NCBI GenBank assembly: GCA_902539445.1
Contig: CACBIY010000001.1
Span: 62,001 to 126,000, forward strand
From: an uncultured Pelagibacteraceae bacterium
Lineage (GTDB): Bacteria > Pseudomonadota > Alphaproteobacteria > Pelagibacterales > Pelagibacteraceae
DNA: 64,000 nt
Direction of reading: 5' to 3'
Below, one piece after another: positions 48,698 to 49,893 of the stretch. Within the stretch, counting starts at the first letter, position 1; every line of letters starts with the position of its first letter. The translations under genes and the position numbers were made by a program. A model generated the notes under the pieces. That model made no database searches and had not been told where the DNA came from. It worked only from the letters and a program-made list of their open reading frames with translations.

Positions 48698-48850
48698 AAC
48701 CAATTAAACTCGTAAATGAGGGTAGTGTCTATTTTTATAAAATTTTATTTACTACTTATAATTGAATAAAATACTATATGTTGTATTTATAGAAAATTAA
48801 TTAATATTTGTAGATATAATTAATAAAGATTTTTAATTAAAATTAAGTAT

Positions 48851-48907
48851 AAAGGTTTTGCCGATTTGATCCTATTGCGGGCATTAACTGCTAAAACGGA
48901 AATCCCA
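48851..48907 (+). promoter_or_regulatory. SAM-II/SAM-V-class riboswitch aptamer candidate
   Basis: In the leader of the bhmT-like gene, GCC (48860-48862) pairs with GGC (48880-48882) around a loop containing GATTTGATCCTATTGC, followed by ATTAACTGCTAAAACGG. The loop core (GATTT..CC.TATTGC) and the GCTAAAA-GG tail match the conserved core of SAM-II and the related SAM-V aptamers, with TCC (48870-48872) able to pair with GGA (48898-48900) as the pseudoknot. SAM-V has been described in Pelagibacter upstream of methionine-cycle genes including bhmT. Which of the two classes this is cannot be settled by eye. Confidence 0.75.
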
Positions 48908-48916
48908 TAATAATCA

Positions 48917-48984
48917 ATCTGCAGGTATTTGAACTATATTGTGCGCCTTGCATAAAGCTAAAGCACTAAAAAAGTGTGGATTTT
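48917..48984 (+). promoter_or_regulatory. Second, diverged SAM-aptamer-like pseudoknot next to the bhmT start
   Basis: TGCAGG (48920-48925) pairs with CTTGCA (48947-48952) around a loop with ATTTGAACTATATTG, resembling the SAM-II/V loop, and is followed by TAAAGCTAAAGCAC. GTGC in the loop (48941-48944) can pair with GCAC (48963-48966). The same GCAC-T can instead pair with AGTG(T) at 48973-48977, next to the likely ribosome site. That gives two exclusive structures at the start codon. Support is by eye only. Confidence 0.4.
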
Positions 48985-49893
48985 ATGGATTTAAATTTTT
49001 TCAAACAAACAAGAATTTTAGATGGTGGTATGGGCCAGGAATTACTTGCGAGAGGTATGGAGCCTAATGGAACTTTGTGGAGTGCGAATGCGTTACTTCA
49101 TGAAAAATATCATCAGTTATTATTGGATACACATTTAGACTTTATCAAGTCTGGTGCTGAGGTAATTGTAACGACTACATTCACAACTAGAAAGATAAGA
49201 TTAAAAGATAATAATGTTGAAGATAAATACGAGTATTTAAATATTAAAGCAGGTGAGATAGCTCAAAAAGCAAAAAAACAATATCCTAAAACTCTTGTTG
49301 CTGGTGGATTGCCGCCTCAATATTTAACTTACGAGGCTGATACAAGATCAGAAAAAGAAATAAAGGATAATTTTTATAGTCAAGCAAAGCTATTAAACCC
49401 GTATATTGATTTTTTTTATTTTGATGTTTTAAGCAGTGTAAGAGAATTTAAAATTGCTATAGAAAGTATTAAAGAATTTAATAAACCATATTTAATTGGA
49501 GCTCATATATCAGAGGGTACAAATTTACCAAGTGGCGAAAAAATTTCTGAAATTATTAACAAAATTAATCATGAAAAATTACTAGGAATAATTTTATCAT
49601 GTATTTCTCCAGAAAATTATGATTTAAATCTTAAAGAAATAAAAAGTTTAAATATTCCATTTGGTTTCAAACTAAATGGTTTTGTTAAAACTAATCCAAA
49701 ACCAAATTATACTGGAGCATACAATAAAAGCAAAACAGGAAATCCAAATGAATTTCTTGGGGTAAGAAAAGATTTAACTCCAGAAAAAATGCTAGAATTT
49801 GCAAAAAAATTCAAAGATGTAGGAGCTACAATAATTGGTGGTTGTTGTGAAACTACACCTTTGCATATTAAAGCTTTTTCAAAGCTTAAGTAG
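48985..49893 (+). CDS. bhmT: Betaine-homocysteine S-methyltransferase-like protein
   Basis: A 302-residue TIM-barrel homocysteine methyltransferase from the ATG at 48985 (MDLNFFKQTRILDGGMGQEL); a GTG at 48976 would overlap the leader pairing. The zinc site is C206 (ILSCISPENY) and C287-C288 (GGCCETTPLHI). HEKYHQLLLDTHLDFIKSGAEVIVTTTFTT is the family's N-terminal signature. It methylates homocysteine to methionine, most likely with glycine betaine, producing dimethylglycine, which the DMGDH-like enzyme in this window could oxidise. The leader carries SAM-riboswitch-like elements. Its end overlaps the convergent transporter gene by 8 bases. Confidence 0.85.
   Translation: MDLNFFKQTRILDGGMGQELLARGMEPNGTLWSANALLHEKYHQLLLDTHLDFIKSGAEVIVTTTFTTRKIRLKDNNVEDKYEYLNIKAGEIAQKAKKQYPKTLVAGGLPPQYLTYEADTRSEKEIKDNFYSQAKLLNPYIDFFYFDVLSSVREFKIAIESIKEFNKPYLIGAHISEGTNLPSGEKISEIINKINHEKLLGIILSCISPENYDLNLKEIKSLNIPFGFKLNGFVKTNPKPNYTGAYNKSKTGNPNEFLGVRKDLTPEKMLEFAKKFKDVGATIIGGCCETTPLHIKAFSKLK

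Follow-up and report, generated by a model that had tools for sequence, protein, structure and literature searches.

A predicted compact SAM-II-like aptamer precedes SAM-V, with no terminator between them, in an mmuM leader of the Pelagibacteraceae

What controls the methionine gene that begins at position 48985 of the stretch of DNA analyzed here, 64,000 nucleotides from an uncultured Pelagibacteraceae bacterium (the window)? SAR11 is one of the ocean's most abundant bacterial groups and depends on regulated methionine synthesis. An earlier reading (the sequence-only reading) had placed two SAM-aptamer-like pseudoknots in tandem ahead of this gene. The region was scanned with Rfam; two genome collections supplied relatives, covariance models were made for the upstream element (element 1), and leaders were compared across the SAR11 family, HTCC1062 included. 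The leader does contain a tandem of two pseudoknot-type elements, spanning roughly 48858 to 48979 on the forward strand, on which all features described below lie. Both aptamers are present, conserved, and covarying, the linker between them holds no terminator, and its complementarity to the upstream aptamer has been kept. Taken as a whole, the leader appears to be a terminator-less fusion of a compact SAM-II with SAM-V, an arrangement that is widespread in SAR11 and has apparently been overlooked.

The gene itself (48985..49893) is predicted to encode a homocysteine S-methyltransferase of 302 aa (PF02574, 178.6 bits). The sequence-only reading had called it bhmT. Since the protein shares 79.6% identity with the HTCC1062 mmuM product over 230 aa and 25.9% with the HTCC1062 bhmT product over 116 aa, we name the gene mmuM and regard it, by this comparison, as an mmuM ortholog. 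The HTCC1062 gene in this comparison is the one preceded by the SAM-V riboswitch at 732787-732850, which is listed as mmuM in PMC2704228.

The downstream element (element 2, 48914..48979) has every predicted feature of an ordinary SAM-V riboswitch aptamer, matching RF01826 at 69.6 bits (E 1.6e-11; gathering cutoff 41). P1 would form between AGGU (48923..48926) and GCCU (48945-48948), possibly extended by GC 48921-48922 with GC 48950-48951, and P2 between GUGC (48941..48944) and GCAC (48963-48966). Both helices covary in relatives, P1 as AGGC/GCCT and AGGT/ACCT and P2 as GTGC/GCAC, GTAC/GTAC, and GTGT/ACAC, and the SAM-contacting residues known from the metY crystal structure (U8, U9, A18, U20, G21, U47, A48, and A50; PMC6061858) are all present. 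As in that metY riboswitch, the aptamer lies beside the ribosome-binding site; the window leader differs in that a second aptamer sits 20-odd nt upstream, and the solved 53-nt metY construct (PMC6061858) lacks the compact element that precedes the metY SAM-V in HTCC1062. One further SAM-V occurs in the window's genome, before metY. The tandem that the sequence-only reading described is therefore real in both its parts, but the strengths that it assigned to them are reversed: the element that it considered the weaker (48920-48966) is a full RF01826 match at 69.6 bits, with covariation in P1 and P2, whereas element 1 receives 9-13 bits from Rfam.

Two details near the start codon deserve mention. 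The ribosome-binding region reads GUGUGG (48974..48979) and is mostly GUGAGG in relatives; the GTGTGG form was seen once among the mmuM leaders counted, and GTGAGG is found in the 97% identical G045 (L073). The window's form is either a weakened ribosome-binding site of this strain or a sequencing error. The competing pairing beside the start codon that had been pointed out earlier does exist in the window (CACU 48964-48967 with AGUG 48973-48976), but metY leaders do not have it and some mmuM leaders break it, so it is probably incidental, and we have rejected this hairpin as a switch.

Element 1 (48858..48901) is predicted to be a compact, SAM-II-like aptamer folded as an H-type pseudoknot, an assignment that draws on a leave-out covariance model, covariation, SAM contacts, and conservation. 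Rfam gives it 13.1 bits as SAM-V, 11.7 as the long-loop SAM-II (RF01726, cutoff 44), and 9.4 as SAM_alpha (RF00521, cutoff 36). Because neither RF01726 nor RF00521 matches above its gathering score, we call the element SAM-II-like, or a compact SAM-II variant, and not a member of the Rfam SAM-II families. The failure of Rfam is not decisive, since the SAM-II of HTCC1062 bhmT, which binds SAM according to the literature, scores 15.5 and 13.1 bits and is also below cutoff. A weak match to Alpha_RBS (10.9 bits, far under cutoff) was considered and set aside. Model R2, which was trained on metY leaders and sister-genus elements only, with no mmuM leader, found element 1 at 64.4 bits (E 9.3e-17), and the next-best site in the window scored 12.9 bits. 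Genome-wide, the metY leader was the sole other strong match to the leave-out model (60 bits), followed by a SAM_alpha-like site on contig 4 (24.5).

In the predicted fold of element 1, P1 pairs GCC (48860..48862) with GGC (48880..48882; 100% of cells paired) and may be extended by a U-A pair (48859/48883); P2a pairs UCC (48870..48872) with GGA (48898-48900; 93% of cells paired), and the inner P2 pairs GC (48877..48878) with GC (48890-48891). The 3′ strand of P2 and the triplex, GCUAAAACGGA (48890..48900), can be mapped onto the numbering of PMC6061858, such that U48892, A48893, and A48895 are the equivalents of the SAM-V contacts U47, A48, and A50. All eight SAM-contact equivalents are present in the window, and in 69 distinct elements they are invariant except for A18 (67/69). 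The sequence-only reading had judged this element (48860-48900) to be close to the SAM-II/SAM-V core; its equivalents of the SAM contacts are all kept, and by Rfam score (9.4-13.1 bits) it stays below cutoff.

Across 70 distinct aligned sequences, all three P1 pairs change on both sides (G-C to A-U and C-G to U-A), a level of compensation that none of 500 shuffles reached, and one pair of P2a does so in 5 rows, where U-A is replaced by A-U or C-G. The inner P2 is compatible with pairing and silent on covariation because it is invariant. Most measures exceed all 500 shuffles as well as slid versions of the structure, and the support for P1 persists in the leave-out alignment. Since the shuffles leave relatedness in place, we describe this covariation as strong rather than formal. 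Among 35 mmuM leaders, element 1 is also the most conserved segment, with a mean pairwise identity of 0.92; SAM-V follows with 0.86, the downstream part with 0.83, the linker with 0.71, and the upstream part with 0.53.

The P1 of SAM-II is typically about 5-7 bp. A long P1 of this type is not present in element 1, which differs from the metX-type aptamer in having 3 bp (4 with the outer U-A), a P1-P2 loop of 6-7 nt, and Rfam scores well under cutoff. By eye, however, L1 (48863-48879, GAUUU...AUUGC) and the 3′ strand (48890-48900, GCUAAAA.GG) align without gaps, and with the same contacts, to what we take to be the sequence of the metX SAM-II aptamer (RF00521, RF01726; 2QWY). Judged by these comparisons, element 1 is a real, if compact, relative of SAM-II.

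The short P1 may be related to the position of element 1 on the transcript. Among relatives, the usual arrangement is a -10 hexamer whose end lies 2-4 nt upstream of element 1 and a TTGATT or TTTACA 16-18 nt further up, so the RNA probably starts at element 1 or beside it, and a start at this point would explain a P1 so short. The candidate -10 box of the window, TATAAA (48848..48853), lies 4 nt before element 1 and is weak; no good -35 was seen in the window, and the promoter scan was silent on TATAAA. If transcription started at G48860, the RNA would be missing bases 48858-48859, the ones that would reach into SAM-V P1.

The two aptamers are joined by a linker of approximately 21 nt (48902..48922). 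We found no terminator-like site within 48700-49050 and have dismissed a terminator between the window's two aptamers; among the compact leaders of relatives, a U-run between the aptamers occurs in 0 of 90. A candidate anti-aptamer segment, AUCAAUCUGCA (48913..48923), overlaps the 5′ strand of SAM-V P1 and is an interrupted complement of UGCCGAUUUGAU (48859-48870), which forms the 5′ strand of element 1. The duplex between the window's linker and that strand is predicted at -7.8 kcal/mol, as against -3.7 for shuffled linkers, and the helix occurs in the predicted minimum-energy fold of the window. The linkers of metY leaders run ...AAUCGGU right before SAM-V P1, opposite GCCGAUUU, and their duplexes with element 1 average -11.4 kcal/mol versus -3.5 when shuffled (p<=0.05 in 84/84). 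Those of mmuM leaders pair less well, through other sequence (AAUCAAUC.GCA, AUCAAAUAAGCA) and in an interrupted helix, at -7.7 versus -3.0 kcal/mol (p<=0.05 in 77%). Minimum-energy folds that contain at least 6 bases of the linker helix are predicted for 93% of metY leaders and 49% of mmuM leaders, compared with 19% for shuffled linkers, and in many of these folds the helix takes at least one base of SAM-V P1. The energy of the whole-leader fold is unremarkable (z -0.77).

A linker end of the UCGG type accompanies element 1 in 60 of the 90 compact leaders, versus 1 of the 18 remaining SAM-V leaders. Element 1 is nearly constant, so the linker helix offers few independent covariations; one is provided by L049, in which CCGA has become CUGA and the linker has UUAG for UCGG (C-G to U-A), and several leaders show G-C versus G-U forms. 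Since the strand that enters this helix also carries two uridines equivalent to SAM contacts, the helix and the bound aptamer should be mutually exclusive. The complementarity of the linker suggests a switch: SAM bound at the upstream aptamer would free the strand beside SAM-V.

We judge the chances to be about even that the leader acts as a coupled two-sensor SAM riboswitch, in which the mRNA begins with a compact SAM-II and the SAM-V after it, on binding SAM, conceals the ribosome-binding site. When SAM is lacking, element 1 would have its 5′ strand, GCCGAUUUGAU, including the two SAM-contacting uridines, paired with the 3′ portion of the linker and the first bases of SAM-V P1; element 1 would then be unfolded, SAM-V partly restrained, and the ribosome-binding site open, leaving translation on. 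With SAM present, element 1 would close its short P1 and P2 triplex around the ligand and release the linker, whereupon SAM-V could fold around a second SAM, shut the ribosome-binding site, and block translation. SAM-V alone has been modelled as closing the ribosome-binding site when it binds SAM (PMC6061858). What we infer in this scheme is that element 1 binds SAM, in what order the steps occur, that the response is cooperative, and that translation is the one output.

The main rival, which we consider unlikely but by no means negligible, is that the leader holds two uncoupled switches. There is precedent, as the published SAM-II/SAM-V tandem works at two levels (PMC9481103), and element 1 also exists in places without SAM-V. 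The mmuM linkers also pair with their own start-codon region at -4.1 kcal/mol, compared with -2.2 for shuffled linkers and -1.6 for metY starts; in metY leaders, however, such anti-start complementarity is weak (-2.7 versus -2.1), and an intrinsic terminator is absent. Two uncoupled switches would also leave unexplained why UCGG directly borders the SAM-V P1 and goes together with element 1.

It is improbable, in our estimation, that element 1, though folded like SAM-II, fails to sense SAM within the full leader (being silenced by the linker, responsive to a related ligand, or merely a 5′ structural cap) and that SAM-V exerts all of the SAM control. The idea deserves attention because the linker of the HTCC1062 bhmT tandem keeps the SAM-II domain from binding SAM in vitro (PMC11508383), and element 1 might for the same reason be inactive in the full RNA. 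On the other hand, the equivalents of the SAM contacts have all been kept, and nearly all of the target genes belong to methionine synthesis.

Might the leader simply be another copy of the published tandem, complete with terminator? We regard this as very improbable. The published SAM-II/SAM-V tandem is the HTCC1062 bhmT leader (PMC2704228, PMC5069961, PMC11508383); 149 tandems of this type have been counted, and in the original 120 SAM-II was always ahead of a terminator (PMC9481103, a 2022 review). The window leader has the aptamers in the same order, SAM-II type first and SAM-V second, and likewise precedes a methionine gene (PMC2704228, PMC5069961, PMC9481103, PMC11508383). The bhmT tandem, however, is a 177-nt RNA with a canonical SAM-II, a P1 of the GCGCU type, and a terminator hairpin followed by a U-run, whereas the window leader has a compact SAM-II with a P1 of 3-4 bp, a short linker complementary to the first aptamer, no terminator, and mmuM downstream (metY in relatives) rather than bhmT; HTCC1062 contains both kinds. 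With a compact SAM-II as its first aptamer and no terminator separating this from SAM-V, the window leader is not the published arrangement, and we have rejected this reading. The sequence-only reading had likened a bhmT leader here to a tandem described for another methionine gene; the published tandem precedes bhmT itself, and the window leader differs from it. Its broader proposal of a double SAM control, with the second copy acting at translation, fits the evidence, even though the aptamer strengths, the gene name, and the likeness to the published tandem were wrong. Glycine and guanidine-II switches also have two ligand sites that seemingly feed one expression platform (PMC9481103); they are two copies of one class, whereas the window leader would combine two different classes.

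Finally, that element 1 is a chance match or a decayed SAM-V duplicate, and that SAM-V alone matters, is scarcely credible and was rejected: Rfam recognizes just one aptamer, SAM-V, above cutoff, but element 1 is better conserved than SAM-V, shows compensatory changes, has matches in 10/10 genera of the family sampled (by a profile that also reaches longer SAM-II forms), and occurs alone.

Comparison of leaders in other genomes bears out the tandem, which recurs before metY and mmuM. Among 108 SAM-V leaders examined, 90 contain the compact element (70 metY, 20 mmuM), 10 a canonical SAM-II, and 8 neither by pattern, although in L110, one of these 8, the pattern missed a compact element. Eight of the 10 canonical SAM-II leaders precede bhmT, one precedes metY, and one is without a gene assignment; a poly-U run separates the aptamers in 8 of the 10, all 8 before bhmT. 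In HTCC1062, metY (49 bits) and mmuM (63 bits) are each preceded by the compact element and bhmT by the canonical SAM-II with its terminator, one genome thus holding both kinds of tandem. The literature on this strain lists metY and mmuM as SAM-V, and SAM-II for bhmT and metX only (PMC2704228, PMC5069961). To judge by PMC2704228 and PMC5069961, which give metY and mmuM as SAM-V only, the compact element looks overlooked in HTCC1062.

Nor is element 1 merely a part of SAM-V, since it is found by itself as well, ahead of mmuM in L036, L052, and L253 and, among sister genera, ahead of metX, metW, and metY (gene names by protein inspection). A wider profile, which also reaches longer SAM-II forms, has matches in 10/10 genera of the family sampled and in 125 of 148 genomes; outside the Pelagibacterales, element 1 has two weak matches in 192 genomes of the class, one of them to a form with a longer P1 that precedes a gene of seemingly unrelated function. 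The exact core pattern is missing from viral contigs, and we have set aside a phage origin or spread.

Returning to the coupled two-sensor switch, we suggest tentatively, with a confidence somewhat short of even, that metY and mmuM of SAR11 are controlled by a riboswitch of two aptamer classes, compact SAM-II and SAM-V, in which folding is coupled through a shared strand and two SAM molecules yield one translational output, and that even in HTCC1062 its upstream half went unnoticed. Should the compact aptamer prove real, the existing models of the metY and mmuM riboswitches, together with the affinities measured on the basis of SAM-V, cover half of the switch, and the known minimum of the SAM-II fold would extend to a P1 of 3 bp. 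If the larger proposal is true, these leaders would offer a natural case of two aptamer classes serving one ligand and one output.

Several individual leaders show further features. In the bhmT leaders L146, L165, L123, L182, L183, L191, and L127, the GGAG at the end of SAM-V is part of a long hairpin or adjoins one (in L146, GGAGAAAAGAGCTT...AAGCTCTTTTTCTCC), one arm of which, UUCUCCAA, could instead be paired to UUGGAGA, a second ribosome-binding site immediately upstream of bhmT. The bhmT reading frame, where located, starts 72-76 nt past SAM-V, and the hairpin is missing in L202 and L205; the hairpin looks like a relay switch rather than a means of direct blocking. Upstream of mmuM in L023, L025, L028, and other SAR11 loci, a SAM aptamer is not visible, and a different AT-rich conserved leader is found. 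A decayed SAM-V stands behind the compact element in L018, directly upstream of mmuM, and the linker of L253, GATCAAAT, is complementary to the AUUUGAUC of its aptamer. At L261:1505 (G394, from another family of the class), a form with a longer P1 (AAAUCG.../CGAUUU) and the same core precedes a 379-aa membrane-like protein that is unlike methionine genes. In L241 and L243-L249, from other genera, a lone compact SAM-II precedes metX/metW-like genes, with the start codon about 10-30 nt on, and several of these have a small hairpin after the aptamer; in L245 the gene is metY and is more distant. This arrangement is possibly a translational platform.
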